Origin: Bradyrhizobium sp. B097
Lineage (GTDB): Bacteria > Pseudomonadota > Alphaproteobacteria > Rhizobiales > Xanthobacteraceae
Assembly: GCF_038957035.1 (NCBI RefSeq)
Contig: NZ_CP152412.1
Location: 7,808,501-7,872,500, forward strand
DNA length: 64,000 bases
Reading direction: 5' to 3'
The stretch's first letter is position 1. The number at the start of each line of letters is the position of its first letter. Under the pieces are notes generated by a model. The model was not told where the DNA came from. It did not search any database and saw only the letters and a program-made list of their open reading frames with translations. The position numbers and the translations under genes are program-made. Below are positions 27,139 through 49,963 of this stretch, one piece after another.

Positions 27139-27261
27139 CGTCGTCCCGGCGAAGGCCGGGACCCATACTCCGCGGCAGATGTCGTGGACGGGATTCGTCG
27201 TTCCAGCGGCGCGCAATAAAGCGCATTCGTGGTTATGGGTCCCGGCCTGCGCCGGGACGAC
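27139..27261. repeat. Palindromic intergenic repeat, family A
   Basis: CGTCGTCCCGGCGAAGGCCG is mirrored by GGCCTGCGCCGGGACGAC about 100 bases later, with CCCATA/TATGGG inside. Second copy of the family found at 24646-24790. It lies between a rightward gene and a leftward gene, where it could end both transcripts. Confidence 0.85.
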
Positions 27262-27294
27262 ACCGCATATGTGGCACGGTCGTCGCAGCACACC

Positions 27295-27750
27295 TCAAAA
27301 CGGCAACACCACGCCGGTCTTGATCTCCTTCAGGATCACGTTGGTGCGGACGTGGCGGATGCCGGGGATGCGGAACATGAACTCGTCGAGGAATCTGTTG
27401 TAGGCGTCCATGTCGCGGACGACGACGCGCAGATGATAGTCGGCATCGCCTGTCGTCGCGAAGCACTCCAGCACCTCGCGGCGCTGCATCACCCGCGCGA
27501 CGAACTCGTCGACGAATTTCGTGTCGTGCCGCTCCAGCGAGACGTGCAGAATCGCCGAGGTCGCAAAGCCGGCGCGCTCGCGCGCCACCAGTGCCGAATA
27601 GCCCGAGATGACGCCGGCCTCCTCGAGCGCGCGGACCCGGCGCCAGCACGCCGAGGTCGACATCCCGACGGTTTCCGCCAGCTGCTGGTTGGTGGCGCGG
27701 CCATCCTTCTGCAGCTCGGCGAGGATTTTTTCGTCTTGCTCTTCGATCAC
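27295..27750 (-). CDS. Lrp/AsnC-family transcriptional regulator
   Basis: A 151-residue protein: helix-turn-helix at residues 5-50 (DEKILAELQKDGRATNQQLAETVG... MSTSACWRRVRALEEAGVI) and a RAM ligand-binding domain (CFATTGDADYHLRVVVRD). The GTG at 27750 gives the normal family length and has GGAG 8 bases upstream; the longer frame adds a tail unlike the family. It diverges from the indolepyruvate ferredoxin oxidoreductase gene with 155 bases between. Lrp-type regulators commonly sense amino acids, so it is the likely regulator of that aromatic-amino-acid-derived pathway. Confidence 0.88.
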   Translation of the reverse strand: MIEEQDEKILAELQKDGRATNQQLAETVGMSTSACWRRVRALEEAGVISGYSALVARERAGFATSAILHVSLERHDTKFVDEFVARVMQRREVLECFATTGDADYHLRVVVRDMDAYNRFLDEFMFRIPGIRHVRTNVILKEIKTGVVLPF

Positions 27751-27905
27751 CGCAGATCTCCGCTTTGGTAGATTGCACCAATATATGATGTTCAGCGCAA
27801 AATCATACCGAAATTTAGGTCGCGGGAGAACAGATAGGTAGGACCTACCAGACACTCAGGCATAGCCTTGCCCTTTACACATTGCGATTCCCGGAGGGGT
27901 CAGTC

Positions 27906-30900
27906 ATGGGCCAGATGCCGCAACTCGACGCCTACCAGCTGTCCGAGCGCTACAGCAGGGAACGCGGCCGCGTCTTCCTCACCGGCACGCAGGCGATCGT
28001 GCGCATCGCGCTCGACCAGATCAGGCGCGACCAGGCCGCCGGGCTCAACACCGCGGGCTTCATCTCCGGCTATCGCGGCTCGCCGCTCGGCGGCGTCGAT
28101 CTCGAATTGTGGAAGATCGGCGAGCGGCTGAAGGAGAGCCGCATCGAATTCCTGCCCGCGGTCAACGAGGACCTCGCCGCGACCGCCGTGCTCGGCTCGC
28201 AGCAGGTCGAGACCCAGACGGATCGCAAGGTCGATGGCGTGTTCGGGCTGTGGTACGGCAAGGGCCCCGGCGTCGATCGCTCCGGCGATGCGCTGAAGCA
28301 CGGCAATGCCTATGGCTCCTCACCGCATGGCGGCGTGCTGGTCGTGGCCGGCGACGACCATGGCTGCGTGTCGTCCTCGATGCCGCATCAATCCGATGTC
28401 GCCTTCATGAGCTGGTTCATGCCGACGCTGCATCCGGCCGACGTCGGCGAGTATCTCGCGTTCGGCGAATATGGCTACGCGCTGAGTCGATTTTCCGGCA
28501 TGTGGGTCGGCTTCAAGGCGATCTCGGAGATCGTCGAGTCCGGCGCCTCAGTCGAGCTGCCGCCGCCGCGCGCCTTCGCGCAGCCGGACTTCGTGCCGCC
28601 ACCCGGCGGCCTGCATTATCGCTGGCCGGACCTGCCGGGCCCGCAGATCGAGGAGCGGCTGGAGGCGAAGAAGCACGCGGTCTACGCTTTTGCGAAAGCC
28701 AATCCGATCGACCGCCGCATCTACGACATCAGGGACGCGACCTACGGCATCGTCACCACAGGCAAGGCGCATCTCGATCTGATGGAGGCGCTGCGGCTGG
28801 TCGGGCTCGACGAGGCCGCATGCCGCCGCTTCGGCATCGACATCTACAAGGTCGGCATGGTGTGGCCGCTGGCGCTGCACGATGCGATGGAGTTCGTGAA
28901 GGGCAAGCGCGAGATCCTGGTGGTCGAGGAGAAGCGCGGCATCATCGAGAGCCAGTTCAAGGAGTATTTCTACGACTATCCCGGCTCCAAGCCGGAACGG
29001 ATGGTCGGCAAGCACGACGAGCGAGGCGCGCGGCTGATCTCGTGGACCGGCGAATTGTCGCCGCGCATGCTAGCCGACGTGCTGGCGCGGCGGCTCGATC
29101 CGATGTTTCCGGAATTGCAGCTCGCCCGCCGCGTCGCCGCGCTCAGGCCCGAGCAGGACCGCATGATCGTGGTGCCGGGCGCGACGCGCACGCCGTATTT
29201 CTGCTCGGGCTGCCCGCACAATACATCGACCAAGGTGCCCGAGGGCTCCAAGGCGCTGGCCGGCATCGGCTGCCACTTCATGGCGAGCTGGATGGACCGC
29301 GAGACCTCGTCGCTGATCCAGATGGGCGGCGAAGGCGTCAACTGGGCGGCCTCGTCGAAATTCACCGGCAACAGCCATGTGTTCCAGAATCTCGGCGAAG
29401 GCACCTATTATCATTCCGGCTCGATGGCGATCCGGCAGGCGATCGCCGCCAACGCCAACATCACCTACAAGATCCTGTTCAACGACGCGGTGGCGATGAC
29501 CGGCGGCCAGCCGGTCGACGGCTCGGTCAGCGTGCAGGCGATCGCGCACTCTGTCCGCGCCGAGGGCGTCGCACGAATTGCGCTGGTGTCGGATGATCCC
29601 GCGCAGTTCTCGCCGGCGGATTTGCCGGTCGGCGTCACCATCCACCCGCGTGAGGAGATGGACGCCGTGCAGCGCGAGCTGCGTGCGATATCTGGCGTCA
29701 CCGTGCTGATCTATCAGCAGACTTGCGCCACCGAGAAGCGGCGGCGGCGCAAGCGCGGCACGATCAAAGATCCCGCGCGTTTTGCTTACATCAACGACCT
29801 CGTCTGCGAGGGCTGCGGCGACTGCTCGGTGGAATCGAACTGCCTCAGCGTCGAGCCGAAGGAGACGCCGTTCGGCCGCAAACGCAAGATCAACCTCTCG
29901 ACCTGCAACAAGGATTTTTCCTGCCTCAACGGCTTCTGCCCGAGCTTCGTCACCGTCGAGGGCGGCAAACGGCGGGCGAAGGGCGCAAGCGCGATCGATC
30001 CGCTGGCGCATGCGACGACACTGCCGACACCAGAGCTTGCGCCCCTCGACAAGCCCTACGATCTGCTGGTCACCGGCGTCGGCGGCACCGGCGTCATCAC
30101 GGTCGGCGCGCTGATCGCGATGGCCGCGCATCTCGAGGGCCGCGGCGTCTCGGTGCTCGACTTCACCGGCTTCGCCCAGAAATTCGGCCCGGTGCTGAGC
30201 TATCTGCGGCTGGCGGCGACGCCCGAGGCGCTGCATCAGGTGCGGATCGACCAGGGCTCGGCCGACGCGCTGATCGGCTGCGACCTCGTGGTGAGCTCGT
30301 CGGCGAAGGCGTCCGGCACCTACCGCAAGGGCATGCGCGCCGCGGTCAACATCGCGGAGATGCCGACCGGCGACGTGGTGCGCTTCCGCGACGCCGACCT
30401 CGCCTCGCCGGTTCGCTTACGCGCCATCGAGCGGGTGATCGGATCAGGCAACCTCACCGCGATCGACACCAATGCGCTGGCCGAGCAGCTGCTCGGCGAC
30501 AGCGTCTACGCCAACATCATGATGCTCGGCTTCGCCTGGCAGCAGGGCCTGGTGCCGGTGTCGCTGGACGCATTGACCCGCGCGATTGAACTCAACGGCG
30601 TCACCGTCGACCGCAACAAGCAGGCGCTGGCCTGGGGCCGGCTCGCCTTTGCCGATCAGGATTTCCTGCCGAAGGCAGACGGCCCTGCGGCCAATGTGCC
30701 CGAGACGCTGGAACAGATGATCGCGCGACGCGCAGACTTCCTTCGTGACTATCAGGACGCGGCCTATGCCGCGCGCTACCGCGCAACGGTCGAGCGCGTC
30801 CGTCGCGCCGAGGCCGCGCTCGGCGGCCGCCGCGGAGAAGGTGCGCCCCCTCTCCCGCTTGCGGGGGAGGGTCGGGGTGGGGGTGTCTCCACGAGTCGTG

Positions 30901-31550
30901 ACGCGGAGAGAGCCCTCACCCGGATCGCATCTGTCGATGCGATCCGGCCTCCCCCGCAAGCGGGAGAGGCGAACCGAGTCCGTGGCGAGGCCGCACTCCC
31001 CCTCACCGACGCCGTCGCCCGCTCACTGTTCAAGCTGATGGCCTACAAGGACGAGTACGAGGTGGCGCGTTTGCACATGCAGACCGGCTTCCTCGAGACC
31101 CTCAAGCGCGAGTTCGACGGTGACTTCACGGTGCAGTACCATCTCGCGCCGCCGCTGTTGCCGGCACGGCTGGATGCACGCGGCCGGCCACGCAAGCGCG
31201 CGTTCGGCCAGTGGATCCAGACGCCACTCCGCTTGCTGGCGCGGCTCAAGGGACTGCGCGGCACGCCGTTCGACGTGTTCGGCTACACCGCGGAGCGTCG
31301 CGCCGAGCGCGAGCTGATCACCTGGTACGAAACGCTGATCGAGACCATGCTCGGCAAGCTCGATGCCGCGCCGCTGCCCGATCTCACAGCGATTGCAAAG
31401 GCCCCGATGGAAATCCGCGGCTATGGCCCGGTGAAGGACGCTGCGATCGAGAAGGCCAAGGCGGAGGTGGCGCGGCTGACCGCGCTTCTCACCTCCGCCC
31501 CGTCAGATACCAACGACGGCTCAGGCCGCCGCGCCGCGCTTGGCGGGTGA
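27906..31550 (+). CDS. Indolepyruvate ferredoxin oxidoreductase, fused alpha-gamma type
   Basis: A 1214-residue enzyme that oxidatively decarboxylates aryl 2-keto acids (from Phe, Tyr, Trp) to aryl-CoA, reducing ferredoxin. The N-terminal pyrimidine-like domain starts RVFLTGTQAIVRIALDQ. A thiamine-diphosphate domain includes GIGCHFMASWMDRE. CEGCGDCSVESNC and CNKDFSCLNGFC (about residues 635-675) bind Fe-S clusters, and the gamma domain begins LLVTGVGGTGVITVGALIA. The ATG at 27906 with GGAGGGG seven bases upstream is preferred. Residues about 979-1027 are not part of the enzyme family: they are an in-frame copy of a genomic palindromic repeat. The last 30 bases overlap the convergent permease gene. 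Likely regulated by the divergent Lrp protein. Confidence 0.92.
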   Translation: MGQMPQLDAYQLSERYSRERGRVFLTGTQAIVRIALDQIRRDQAAGLNTAGFISGYRGSPLGGVDLELWKIGERLKESRIEFLPAVNEDLAATAVLGSQQVETQTDRKVDGVFGLWYGKGPGVDRSGDALKHGNAYGSSPHGGVLVVAGDDHGCVSSSMPHQSDVAFMSWFMPTLHPADVGEYLAFGEYGYALSRFSGMWVGFKAISEIVESGASVELPPPRAFAQPDFVPPPGGLHYRWPDLPGPQIEERLEAKKHAVYAFAKANPIDRRIYDIRDATYGIVTTGKAHLDLMEALRLVGLDEAACRRFGIDIYKVGMVWPLALHDAMEFVKGKREILVVEEKRGIIESQFKEYFYDYPGSKPERMVGKHDERGARLISWTGELSPRMLADVLARRLDPMFPELQLARRVAALRPEQDRMIVVPGATRTPYFCSGCPHNTSTKVPEGSKALAGIGCHFMASWMDRETSSLIQMGGEGVNWAASSKFTGNSHVFQNLGEGTYYHSGSMAIRQAIAANANITYKILFNDAVAMTGGQPVDGSVSVQAIAHSVRAEGVARIALVSDDPAQFSPADLPVGVTIHPREEMDAVQRELRAISGVTVLIYQQTCATEKRRRRKRGTIKDPARFAYINDLVCEGCGDCSVESNCLSVEPKETPFGRKRKINLSTCNKDFSCLNGFCPSFVTVEGGKRRAKGASAIDPLAHATTLPTPELAPLDKPYDLLVTGVGGTGVITVGALIAMAAHLEGRGVSVLDFTGFAQKFGPVLSYLRLAATPEALHQVRIDQGSADALIGCDLVVSSSAKASGTYRKGMRAAVNIAEMPTGDVVRFRDADLASPVRLRAIERVIGSGNLTAIDTNALAEQLLGDSVYANIMMLGFAWQQGLVPVSLDALTRAIELNGVTVDRNKQALAWGRLAFADQDFLPKADGPAANVPETLEQMIARRADFLRDYQDAAYAARYRATVERVRRAEAALGGRRGEGAPPLPLAGEGRGGGVSTSRDAERALTRIASVDAIRPPPQAGEANRVRGEAALPLTDAVARSLFKLMAYKDEYEVARLHMQTGFLETLKREFDGDFTVQYHLAPPLLPARLDARGRPRKRAFGQWIQTPLRLLARLKGLRGTPFDVFGYTAERRAERELITWYETLIETMLGKLDAAPLPDLTAIAKAPMEIRGYGPVKDAAIEKAKAEVARLTALLTSAPSDTNDGSGRRAALGG
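30841..30985. repeat. Palindromic repeat family D inserted in frame in a coding sequence
   Basis: This 145-base element starts GTGCGCCCCCTCTCCCGCTT and ends near GAGTCCGTGG; CTCCCGCTTGCGGGGGAG is mirrored by CTCCCCCGCAAGCGGGAG, and GGATCGCAT pairs with ATGCGATCC. It matches the intergenic copy at 48771-48914 almost base for base. It is read without a stop as GAPPLPLAGEGRGGG through AGEANRVRGE. Confidence 0.9.
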
Positions 31551-36857: not shown

Positions 36858-36909
36858 GCTGTGCCCTCCCGCTGCGTCCCTCCTTCGTGCCGCGATCACC
36901 GATGGAAGG

Positions 36910-37096
36910 GCTCCCTCCCCCCTTGCGGGGGAGGGTTGGGGAGAGGGGTGCCGCTTGCGCTGAGATCAGACGGATCGCGATTGCGCACCTGCTTCAAGTG
37001 ACGCATCGGGCGGATTGAAGCAGATCGAGCAAATTGACGCGTCAGCGCCCGGGGCCACCCCTCTCCCCACCCTCTCCCGCAAGGGGAGAGGGAGCC
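36910..37096. repeat. Palindromic intergenic repeat, family D-related
   Basis: CCCCTTGCGGGGGAGGGTTG near 36920 is answered by CCACCCTCTCCCGCAAGGGG near 37070, about 110 bases later. It fills much of the 483-base gap 36795-37277 between emrA and emrB. The interior differs from the copies at 30841 and 48771. I see no gene in the gap. Confidence 0.78.
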
Positions 37097-47224: not shown

Positions 47225-48733
47225 ATGGATACTCTCGTCAATGTCGCCCACGGCCTCGGCGTCGCGCTGCTGCCGGTCAATTTGCTCTATTGCTTCATCG
47301 GCGTGTTCATCGGCACGCTGGTCGGCGTGCTGCCCGGCATCGGCCCGATCTCCGCGATGTCGCTATTGCTGCCGGTCACGCTGTCCGGCACGCCGGAGTC
47401 CGGCATCATCATGATGGCCGGCATCTACTACGGCTCGATGTATGGCGGCTCGACCACCTCGATCCTCGTCAATATCCCCGGCGAAGCCGCCTCCGTCGTC
47501 ACCTGCATCGACGGCCACCAGATGGCCAAGCAGGGCCGCGCCGGCCCCGCGCTCGGCATCTCCGCGTTCGGCTCGTTCATCGCTGGCACTTTCTCGCTGG
47601 TCGCCCTGATGCTGGTGGCGCCCTCGCTCGCCAGCGTCGCGATCGCGTTCGGCCCGGCCGAGTATTTCAGCCTGATGGTGCTCGGCCTCGTCGTGCTGAC
47701 GTTCCTCACCCAGGGCTCGATGGCCAAGGCGCTGCTGATGGCCTGCATCGGCGTCGTGCTCGGCCTGGTCGGGCTCGACAGCATCACCGCGCAGCCGCGG
47801 CTGACCTTCGGCCGCATCGAGCTGATCGACGGCATCGGCCTCGTGCCTGTCGTGATGGGCCTGTTCGGCGTCGCCGAGGTGCTGCTCAACACCGAGCAGG
47901 CGATCAGGCGCGACATCATCAACGCCAAGATCACCCAGCTGTTGCCCAACAAGGAAGACTGGAAGGCGAGCGCCGGTCCGGTGGCACGCGGCACCGTACT
48001 CGGCTTCTTCCTCGGCATCCTGCCCGGCGGCGGTGCCGTGGTGGCATCGTTTGCATCCTATGCGCTGGAGAAACGGCTGTCGAAGCATCCGGAGCGTTTC
48101 GGCCACGGCGCGATCGAGGGTGTCGCGGGGCCGGAATCGGCCAACAATTCCGCGGCCGGCGGCGCCTTCATTCCGCTGATGACGCTCGGCATCCCGCCGA
48201 ATGTGGTGATGGCCCTGCTGCTCGGCGCCTTCGTGATCCACGGCCTGCAGCCGGGACCGCTGATGATCTCGCAGAACCCAACGTTGTTCTGGGGCATCGT
48301 CGCCAGCATGTATATCGGCAATCTGATGCTGTTGGTGCTCAACCTGCCGATGATCGGGATGTGGGTGCAGCTGCTGCGGCTGCCCTACAATGTGCTGTTC
48401 CCGCTGATCATCCTGTTCACGATCATCGGCGTCTACTGCTCCAGCAACAACGTGTTCGACGTCCATGTCATGATCGCGTTCGGCGTGATCGGCTATTTCA
48501 TGCGCAAGCTCGGCTACGAGCCGGCGCCGCTGGTGCTGGCCTTCGTGCTCGGGCCGATGCTGGAGAACAATCTGCGCAAGTCGCTGATCCTCTCGCAGGG
48601 CGATCTCATGACCTTCGTGGAACGGCCGATCTCGGCGATCTGCCTCGCCTTCGCGCTGCTGCTGCTGGTCGGCCCGCTGCTGCCGTCGCTGCGCAGGAAG
48701 CGCGAGCTGGTGGCGCTGGACGAGGGGGCTTAG
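47225..48733 (+). CDS. tctA: Tripartite tricarboxylate transporter large membrane subunit TctA
   Basis: A 502-residue protein with about 12 helices. The two TctA repeats each start with a GxxPGxG motif: GVLPGIGPISAMSLLLPVT near residue 38 and GILPGGGAVVASFASYALE near 262. MMAGIYYGSMYGGSTTSILVNIPGE and GPESANNSAAGGAFIPLMTLGIP are further signatures. It forms the transport channel and works with TctB and TctC. Tight spacing to tctB (6 bases) shows cotranscription. The IclR regulator at 48933-49778 converges on it. Confidence 0.92.
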   Translation: MDTLVNVAHGLGVALLPVNLLYCFIGVFIGTLVGVLPGIGPISAMSLLLPVTLSGTPESGIIMMAGIYYGSMYGGSTTSILVNIPGEAASVVTCIDGHQMAKQGRAGPALGISAFGSFIAGTFSLVALMLVAPSLASVAIAFGPAEYFSLMVLGLVVLTFLTQGSMAKALLMACIGVVLGLVGLDSITAQPRLTFGRIELIDGIGLVPVVMGLFGVAEVLLNTEQAIRRDIINAKITQLLPNKEDWKASAGPVARGTVLGFFLGILPGGGAVVASFASYALEKRLSKHPERFGHGAIEGVAGPESANNSAAGGAFIPLMTLGIPPNVVMALLLGAFVIHGLQPGPLMISQNPTLFWGIVASMYIGNLMLLVLNLPMIGMWVQLLRLPYNVLFPLIILFTIIGVYCSSNNVFDVHVMIAFGVIGYFMRKLGYEPAPLVLAFVLGPMLENNLRKSLILSQGDLMTFVERPISAICLAFALLLLVGPLLPSLRRKRELVALDEGA

Positions 48734-48770: not shown

Positions 48771-48914
48771 GTGCGCCCCCTCTCCCGCTTGCGGGGGAGG
48801 GTTGGGGTGGGGGTATCACCGCGAGTCATCTAGTGGAGAAAGCCCCCACCCGGATTGCATCTTCGATGCAATCCGACCTCCCCCGCAAGCGGGAGAGGTG
48901 AAGCCAGTCCGCGG
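48771..48914. repeat. Palindromic intergenic repeat, family D
   Basis: GTGCGCCCCCTCTCCCGCTT opens and CCCCCGCAAGCGGGAGAGGT closes the element; GGATTGCAT/ATGCAATCC form the inner arms. It lies between the convergent tctA and iclR genes and is the near-twin of the copy embedded in the oxidoreductase gene at 30841-30985. Confidence 0.9.
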
Positions 48915-48932: not shown

Positions 48933-49778
48933 TCAACCCGCCTTCGCCGGACGCCCGTTCTTCGGCGCCTGGGCCATCGCGCGGGCCAGCACCTGGGCTT
49001 CCTTCTTCAACATGTCGGCGAGCTCGCTTTCGCGGCGGCGGATGCGGTCGGTGGCAGCGCCGATCGACAGCGCGGCGACCACCTCGCCGGCATCGTCGCG
49101 GACGGGAACGCCGACGCCGCCCATGCCGGGGAATGCGGCGTCGAGCAGCACGGTGTGGCCGGCCTTGCGCGCCACGGCGATCCGCTCGCGCAGGAATTTT
49201 GGCGTGATGCGCGGCGATTTCGCCAGCCGAGGCACGATCACCTCGATCACGGCCTCGATCTCGGCATCCGGCAGCCAGACCAAGAGCGCCAGCGCGCCTG
49301 CGCCGACGCCGAGCGGACGGCGGCTGCCGATCTGCAGATAATTCGGCTGCAGCGGGTGGCTGCCGACCGAGCGCGCCAGATACAGCGCCTCGACGCCGGA
49401 GCGCACCGACAACAGCGCCGTATCCGCGGAGCGCTCCGACAGCCGGAGCAGGCTCGGCTGCGCCAGCTCGGCGATGTCGACCGAGCGGCGCGCGCCGACC
49501 GCCATCACCCGCGCCTCCTGGCCGAGCTCATAGGTCTTGGCGCCGGCGAGCCGACTGACGAAACCTTCCTCGATCAGCGAGTTGAGGATGCGCAGCGCGG
49601 TCGCCTTGTTCAGCGAGGTGGTGTCGGCGATGTCGGTCAGCCGCAGCGGCGAGCGCTGCGCCAGCACGCGCAAGATCGCGCAGACCTTCTGGATCGCGTT
49701 GAACTTGTCGGGTTGGCCAGGCTCCGGCGGTGGCCTCTTGCGGCTGGTCCGTGCGGTCGCAGTCGTGGAGGCGTTCAT
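48933..49778 (-). CDS. IclR-family transcriptional regulator
   Basis: A 281-residue protein. The N-terminal winged helix spans about residues 28-85 (FNAIQKVCAILRVLAQRSPLRLTDIADTTSLNKATALRILNSLIEEGFV), and the effector GAF-like domain follows from about residue 100 (GVGAGALALLVWLPDAEIEAVI). The ATG at 49778 is preferred to one 24 codons up. It lies 3' of tctA in the opposite direction and downstream of the MFS gene; it may regulate either. IclR proteins usually repress catabolic or uptake genes until a carboxylate or aromatic ligand binds. Confidence 0.88.
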   Translation of the reverse strand: MNASTTATARTSRKRPPPEPGQPDKFNAIQKVCAILRVLAQRSPLRLTDIADTTSLNKATALRILNSLIEEGFVSRLAGAKTYELGQEARVMAVGARRSVDIAELAQPSLLRLSERSADTALLSVRSGVEALYLARSVGSHPLQPNYLQIGSRRPLGVGAGALALLVWLPDAEIEAVIEVIVPRLAKSPRITPKFLRERIAVARKAGHTVLLDAAFPGMGGVGVPVRDDAGEVVAALSIGAATDRIRRRESELADMLKKEAQVLARAMAQAPKNGRPAKAG

Positions 49779-49963
49779 GCCTTGGTCTTCCTTGCCTTCA
49801 ATTCCAAATCCTGAACCGGCACGACAAAGGGATGTGCCGGCGGACATCATCCTAAAACGGATGACGCGCGCCGGACATCGTATACTTTCGTGAGATGAAA
49901 CTTTGATTGCGACTATCTACGCTGCCTTGCAGCAACGGGATGTTCGAATTTCGCTTCACGAAA

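Follow-up and report, generated by a model that had tools for sequence, protein, structure and literature searches.

A dispersed palindromic repeat read in frame within an indolepyruvate ferredoxin oxidoreductase gene of Bradyrhizobium

Palindromes that code for protein are best known from the obligate intracellular genera Rickettsia and Wolbachia (PMC2229807). The Rickettsia palindromic elements (RPEs) are described as palindromes of ∼105-150 bp that occur in many copies, lie in frame in genes for conserved proteins, and are thought to be neutral or slightly detrimental (PMC2229807, PMC10969869); a Rickettsia gmk carrying one is reported to be translated and active (PMC2229807, PMC10969869), and nearly half of the RPEs of R. 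conorii are reported to lie inside genes (PMC10969869). Intragenic repetitive extragenic palindromes (REPs) were described by Di Nocera (2013), with DnaE2 and repair genes among the hosts and altered mutability as a proposed outcome (PMC3733652). The CIR repeats of Caulobacter and other alphaproteobacteria are presented as two-armed elements of ∼110 bp with a conserved GANTC, with stops in all six frames and with no intragenic location (PMC2229807), and the ERIC/RU and Correia (NEMIS) miniature inverted-repeat transposable elements (MITEs) as small non-autonomous repeats whose open frames have been fused into genes (PMC2229807). Here we analyze a palindromic repeat that is read in frame within the gene for a fused indolepyruvate ferredoxin oxidoreductase (IOR) in a 64,000-nucleotide stretch of DNA from Bradyrhizobium sp. 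B097 (contig NZ_CP152412.1, positions 7,808,501 to 7,872,500; hereafter the window).

The open reading frame (ORF) of the IOR gene is stop-free across the whole repeat segment (coordinates of all features are given in Table 1), and the nearest named protein relatives are from Bradyrhizobium. Judged from the lengths of the homologues, the real start is probably the ATG at 27906 (protein MGQMPQL...) rather than the TTG at 27882. Residues 979-1027, which the original prediction gave for the inserted peptide, are right when counted from this ATG (987-1035 from the TTG); the insert is longer than the ∼49 residues then proposed, with a net gain over empty alleles of 168 nt, or 56 codons. Its palindromic core (30849-30969) is bounded by two 22-nt arms, and the segment folds as single-stranded DNA with a z score of -8.5 relative to shuffles, none of 200 of which folded as well. 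A second copy of the repeat in the window lies between two convergent ORFs that are taken as real genes. This copy was said to match the IOR segment (30841-30985) almost base for base; the two 22-nt arms are indeed identical between the copies, and the wording is a little strong for the whole, where identity is 87% over 145 positions. A scan of the window with Rfam found no family reaching its gathering score.

The repeat is dispersed across the host genome, a single contig of 9.25 Mb. The arm motif, with up to three mismatches allowed, occurs 197 times compared with 0 in the reversed control, and at least 92 non-overlapping copies were located, 80 of them at least 100 nt long (30 loci and 53 further genomic stretches), so the matches are not due to chance; a 34-nt pattern from the left half of the repeat occurs 82 times (control, 0). 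We regard this census as probably near complete. The observation that an in-frame palindromic repeat lies in IOR is confirmed and is well above chance. Flank conservation across 79 genomic copies gives a unit of ∼156 nt, whose consensus has terminal inverted repeats (CCGCG/CGCGG) in addition to the 22-nt inner arms. The spacer contains GANTC in 59 of these copies (mean 9.4 and largest value 17 in 200 shuffles), and the core, as measured by match, is 121 nt long in 17. Whichever of the six frames is considered, 44-52 of the 79 copies are open in it. Because more than half of the copies are stop-free in any one frame, the capacity for read-through lies in the stop-poor repeat as such; 23 of the 79 are open in the frame used in IOR and have a length divisible by three.

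The means by which the repeat may have moved was sought in the same genome. Mobility driven by a REP-associated tyrosine transposase was rejected, since the Y1 transposase family (PF01797) has 0 matches there (5 of 14 control genomes were positive). No target duplication, a point raised for checking in the original prediction, was found: an 18-nt direct repeat (30804-30821 and 30981-30998) was rejected as such because it is not common to all orthologues and because its downstream end resembles, in several orthologues, the family's own outer flank, and 5-mer matches at fixed offsets numbered up to 3 in 79 copies compared with 2-6 in 30 shuffles (the true ends may lie further out). Outer arms of greater length, TAGAGCGCGATGA...TCATCTTGCTCTA in type, are visible by eye in copies L010, L018, L019, and L024, so the element as a whole may exceed 156 nt; an automatic search gave 14-nt outer inverted repeats in 6 of 79 copies, mostly unconvincing, and a longer element with TAGAGCGCGATGA-type arms was not adopted. 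At a further set of loci (L139, L156, L160, L162, L166, L168, L171, L172, L173, L175, and L176), the repeat lies directly upstream of a conserved gene, open in frame with it, whose protein begins near AHAFIAYVSNEKSNTV; this is probably a leader element 5' of the gene, at a single conserved position.

Most relatives of the IOR protein lack the inserted segment. Among the best 120 of 7,883 homologues, 7 contain the insert, 1 contains a remnant, and 112 have the short form, mostly reading like AEAALGSET followed across the insertion point by LTDAV; this distribution agrees with the proposed insertion of a dispersed element, and alignment with relatives that lack it defines the edges of the insert (Table 1). 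When 265 genomes of the genus were searched, the matches listed included at least 11 in-frame inserts (that of the window counted), at least one frameshifted insert (L042), and at least one remnant (L043), in which an internal deletion has removed roughly half of the added residues' DNA. Within the clade studied, the corresponding stretch measures 27 nt in 12 empty alleles and 195-210 nt in 12 filled ones. All 12 filled alleles have the same insertion point and 5' junction, and their 3' tail occurs in three forms (short in 8, longer in L035, and different in L038, L039, and L042). The core of the insert is 121 nt long without an indel in 10 of the 12 orthologues, a uniformity that common descent explains in part. 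In L041 (genome G092), a -1 and a +1 change cancel, such that the insert is read in another frame and the peptide is altered while the downstream frame of the enzyme is kept. The empty alleles carry ancestral SET-like codons and no scars, and excision from a filled allele would not restore these codons.

The inserted codons show no protein-level selection, while those of the surrounding enzyme do. With L041 and L042 excluded, the 10 orthologues with an intact frame have a mean heterozygosity of 0.135, 0.145, and 0.154 at codon positions 1, 2, and 3 of the insert, compared with 0.046, 0.032, and 0.203 upstream and 0.078, 0.053, and 0.247 downstream; the codon-position signal that is strong in the flanks is absent from the insert, the amino acids of which are therefore probably not selected. 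An AlphaFold2 model of IOR residues 700-1222, built with 50 sequences, had a mean predicted local distance difference test score (pLDDT) of 69.3 and a predicted template modeling score (pTM) of 0.61. Within it, fragment residues 286-336 (protein residues 985-1035) have pLDDT values below 50 and lie between helices at 261-285 and 341-355. With moderate confidence, the model fits a disordered loop, and a linker or loop had been proposed for this C-terminal part; no useful relative of the insert-bearing domain was found among solved structures.

Based on these results, we consider it very probable that the insert is a tolerated selfish repeat in a loop of IOR, with the frame kept and the amino acids unselected, and most likely the result of a single insertion. 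An ancestral Bradyrhizobium would have received, most likely a single time, a dispersed, hairpin-forming, MITE-like repeat of ∼156 nt in its IOR gene, at what the model suggests is a helix-to-helix loop in the DUF6537 part of the protein. An insertion of the right length would be read through as ∼56 extra residues, since copies are stop-poor in all six frames, and these residues would form a floppy loop that is tolerated. Selection would then hold the downstream frame and not the amino acids, leaving the repeat to evolve on like the genomic copies, and filled and empty alleles would subsequently have been shuffled between species by homologous recombination. The insert is thus predicted to be translated, its residues are predicted from the model to be disordered, and its presence is presumably neutral for the enzyme.

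Table 1. Positions of the IOR gene, its insert, and related repeats (window coordinates unless a locus is named)
Feature	Position	Strand	Basis or remark
Host gene, fused indolepyruvate ferredoxin oxidoreductase (IOR)	27882..31550	+	ORF; NCBIfam PRK13030; Pfam POR + DUF6537
Stretch missing from empty alleles	30828..31001	+	174 nt vs 6 nt in 12 same-clade empty alleles; protein alignment
Conserved repeat unit, 156 nt, CCGCG...CGTGG	30830..30985	+	Flank conservation across 79 genomic copies
Left 22-nt arm of large palindrome	30849..30870	+	
Right 22-nt arm, 100% complementary to left arm	30948..30969	+	
Inner hairpin, 12-bp perfect stem, 4-nt loop	30920..30947	+	In 2 pairs, both partners vary between orthologous inserts
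GAGTC, a GANTC site in the spacer of the IOR insert	30893..30897	.	Motif count vs shuffles
Second family copy in the window	48771..48914	+	Flanked by 47225-48733(+) and 48933-49850(-), two convergent ORFs
imuB and dnaE2 of the same genome, each with a different palindromic repeat in frame at one loop	L144:3872-9348 (genome 6068000-6086000)		ImuB copy also in L004

The filled and empty alleles are scattered over the gene tree. On a tree of the coding sequence flanking the insert (30 of the 265 genomes, best matches), the filled state requires 9 changes compared with 9.7 in shuffles, 207 of 500 of which were as low, and a tree in which the 12 filled alleles and 1 remnant are held as one clade is rejected by the approximately unbiased test (p-AU 1.6e-146); vertical inheritance alone was therefore rejected as an account of this scattered distribution. 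In every 90-nt window of the alignment, filled-empty distances deviate by no more than 0.005 from the average of the two within-class distances. For the empty allele L047, the nearest allele is L050 (empty) over the 240 nt that precede the site, and L037 (filled) both further upstream and in all five downstream windows. The flanks of the insert are a recombination mosaic, and homologous recombination that shuffles old filled and empty alleles between species would account for the scatter.

Mean core difference is 0.098 among IOR orthologues, 0.144 between orthologues and copies of the window's genome, and 0.138 among the latter. The number of insertions was also assessed from a set of 157 copies (12 from IOR, 78 from the same genome, and 67 from loci of other genomes). 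In this set, 11 of the 12 IOR inserts are nearest to another IOR insert, and a single clade of IOR inserts is not rejected by the test (p-AU 0.86), with the tree constrained to that clade 44 log units above the quick free tree. Because the filled alleles have a common insertion point and 5' junction, one old insertion behind all of them is the likelier, if unproven, history as judged from these comparisons.

Several results weigh against a tolerated repeat that entered IOR once. The insert of L036 is nearer to a genomic copy (0.042) than to L038 (0.066), that of the window is close to a tie (0.074 to the nearest orthologue and 0.075 to a genomic copy), the quick tree of the 157 copies needs 5 changes, and the three forms of the 3' tail do not speak for a single origin. 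Distances between inserts track those between flanks weakly (rho 0.22, with 557 of 5000 permutations as high), and the empty allele L048 is nearest to the filled allele L039 on both sides of the site, so that loss of the insert there would require a very short exchanged tract. The core differs by less (0.095) than do the fourfold sites of the flanks (0.225), which requires conservation or homogenization at the DNA level, neutral drift alone being insufficient, and the AlphaFold2 model is of moderate quality.

Some of these results would be expected if several independent insertions at the same site explained the scatter. Such a history would fit the tail forms, the position of L036, the 5 changes on the quick copy tree, and a filled state that fits the flank gene tree no better than shuffled labels do; in ImuB and DnaE2, moreover, different repeats occupy the same loop (see below). 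We nevertheless consider it unlikely, given that the insertion point and 5' junction are common to 12 of 12 filled alleles, that the inserts are mostly nearest to each other, that one clade of them is not rejected and gives the higher-scoring tree, and that the empty alleles have ancestral SET-like codons without scars.

The palindrome itself could instead be what is conserved. Scored on a structure derived from one of their own sequences, 11 orthologues (L042 left out) retain 97.2% of 506 pair cells, with a covariation score above those of 500 of 500 shuffles and all slid controls; both-side changes occur in only 2 of 46 pairs, a count that 257 of 500 shuffles reach. The arms are nearly invariant, with differences of 0.018 and 0.034 among the IOR orthologues and 0.010 and 0.037 among 72 genomic copies. 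This pairing pattern would be expected from selection on structure, but equally from hairpin-templated repair or from gene conversion by other copies, and it does not tell the three apart. That the hairpin is conserved as an RNA or DNA structure in the gene (acting, for example, on transcription or translation), with read-through incidental, would explain the kept pairs and arms, but we judge it improbable: the compensating changes are few enough to arise in shuffles, the structure was derived from one of the sequences tested, repair or conversion would give the same pattern, and the empty alleles manage without a hairpin.

Very improbable is a domesticated peptide, selected for a function in the enzyme. 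Of the 12 filled genomes, 11 have the insert in frame (one through the two cancelling changes), and its core is more conserved than fourfold sites; on the other hand, it has no codon-position signal, L041 reads it in a different frame, roughly half of the added sequence is gone from L043, and close relatives are entirely without it. Misassembly, or an IOR pseudogene in these strains, at which the one frameshifted filled genome (L042) might hint, can practically be dismissed in view of the in-frame insert in eleven separate genomes and the strong protein-level constraint on the flanking codons of filled strains. A tolerated repeat, most likely inserted once, is thus the reading that we retain.

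In-frame copies within genes are rare in this genome. Of the spanning frames, 39 (IOR included) passed the length filter, 16 were read by eye, and 8 ORFs were scanned with Pfam, which showed conservation on both sides of the repeat for ImuB alone, matches downstream of the repeat only for 4, and no match for 3; for the other frames, codon GC pattern was the sole criterion, without gene calling. At least 2 of the 92 copies are therefore shown to be mid-gene and in frame (IOR and ImuB), and the search for in-frame copies in other genes that accompanied the original prediction yields ImuB as one further host. Relatives of this ImuB have the same repeat, other repeats, or a short loop between LPIDRIKRK and SVVVAKDHN, and several ImuB records start downstream of the repeat.

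A search with the insert alone among proteins of 672-2138 amino acids gave 17 matches in 239 candidates, of which 6 are IOR and 11 have the name or Pfam set of DnaE2 (error-prone DNA polymerase). Across the genus, a peptide search matched at E≤1e-8 in 119 of 257 genomes, with a query derived from ImuB and hence biased toward it. Around the peptide matches at 71 loci, 40 of them picked nearly always for long open frames, 62 ORFs of at least 300 amino acids comprise 17 ImuB (that of the window's genome counted twice), 16 DnaE2, and 29 that are neither by motif, many of which resemble ORFs that lie upstream or are in the wrong frame; the loci fetched covered no additional IOR site.

DnaE2 was found in 88 of 89 genomes. 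The palindromic repeat in the DnaE2 loop of the window's genome differs from that in IOR and has 94 matches in the genome, many of them partial. We surveyed both loops in this genome and 40 others (roughly every second row), assigning repeat kinds A-D by motif. Among the 39 genomes with a readable ImuB loop, 15 have a repeat in it (A in 5, B in 4, A+B in 1, and C in 5) and 24 have a loop of 14-19 amino acids; 2 genomes were unreadable. For DnaE2, 34 of 41 loops contain a repeat (A in 3, B in 2, B+D in 1, and D in 28, the D motif set being loose and including at least one doubtful short loop, L208), and 7 are 30-39 amino acids long. Kinds A and B are distinguished by motif, yet their arms are alike, a B copy matching the A arm at 3 mismatches. 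For kinds D and C, one example each was checked, and both proved to be dispersed in the genome that carries them (81 and 32 matches, respectively). It is conceivable, if doubtful, that the loops of ImuB and DnaE2/ImuC, partners in the SOS error-prone polymerase, are landing pads in Bradyrhizobium that at least four kinds of dispersed repeat enter repeatedly in frame, that loop length or content may tune mutagenesis, and that the IOR loop is a rarer case of the same process.

Other repeat-like sequences were noticed in the window. A copy of the repeat found in this genome's DnaE2 lies at 36904-37096; its ends, CTCCCTCCCCCCTTGCGGGGGAGG for example, are inverted. A minus-strand ORF translation (∼27140-27291), upstream of the IOR gene, contains VVPAQAGTH...VWVPAFAGTT and looks like another dispersed repeat; a small minus-strand ORF (27295-27855) adjoins it.

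Genetic drift is strong in Rickettsia and Wolbachia, and Bradyrhizobium is a free-living genus. In this genus with large genomes, filled and empty IOR alleles coexist in about a dozen species each and so provide a natural comparison of the enzyme with and without its insert, and a codon-position test separates what is tolerated from what is used. The suggestion that the element can be a source of new protein sequence is less well supported: residues are added to conserved proteins, repeatedly so in the ImuB and DnaE2 of the genus, but the inserted IOR codons show no protein-level selection, L041 has changed frame, at least 2 of 92 copies are mid-gene, and there is no sign of use. The wider point is that the loops of ImuB and DnaE2 have been filled repeatedly by several kinds of repeat, and these repeat-laden loops make the speculation on altered error-prone repair put forward in PMC3733652 accessible to a mutation-rate test. 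Repeat inserts may also mislead gene finders, as in the ImuB records that start downstream of the repeat.

Compared with the elements described elsewhere, the Bradyrhizobium repeat is closest in behavior to the RPEs, as the original prediction had it: it is a many-copy palindrome of similar size that lies in frame in IOR, ImuB, and DnaE2. By this analogy, which is one of behavior, it works like an RPE. It differs in its host, with a Bradyrhizobium-like genome of 9.25 Mb, and in that at least 2 of 92 copies are mid-gene compared with the nearly half reported for R. conorii. With the GTAG/CGTC REPs it shares palindromes in dimers, Bradyrhizobium as a host, and intragenic copies, DnaE2 included, as these are reported in PMC3733652, the main text of which does not mention ImuB. 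In an alignment and consensus of 30 copies, neither GTAG nor CGTC was seen by eye at the ends of the arms. These start with CCTC, which has been reported as a variant of CGTC (PMC3733652) but is here paired with GAGG. Because CGTC REPs are described as lacking a Y1 transposase, its absence from this genome is evidence against GTAG REPs alone. Like the CIR repeats, the Bradyrhizobium repeat has a conserved GANTC; unlike them, it pairs its two ends, has more than half of its copies open per frame, and occurs in genes, and it is thus not a CIR as these are described in PMC2229807. It resembles the ERIC/RU and Correia (NEMIS) MITEs in being small, with open frames fused into genes, and differs from them in its hosts and in that no target duplication was found in the test of 79 copies. 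Searches of the open-licence literature yielded no description of this repeat or of ImuB hosts, with supplements and figures outside this scope, such that an earlier notice of Bradyrhizobium cases is possible. Protein-coding repeats of this kind are thus already known, from the RPEs and from intragenic REPs that include DnaE2 among their hosts, and it is this repeat family and its set of hosts that appear to be new.

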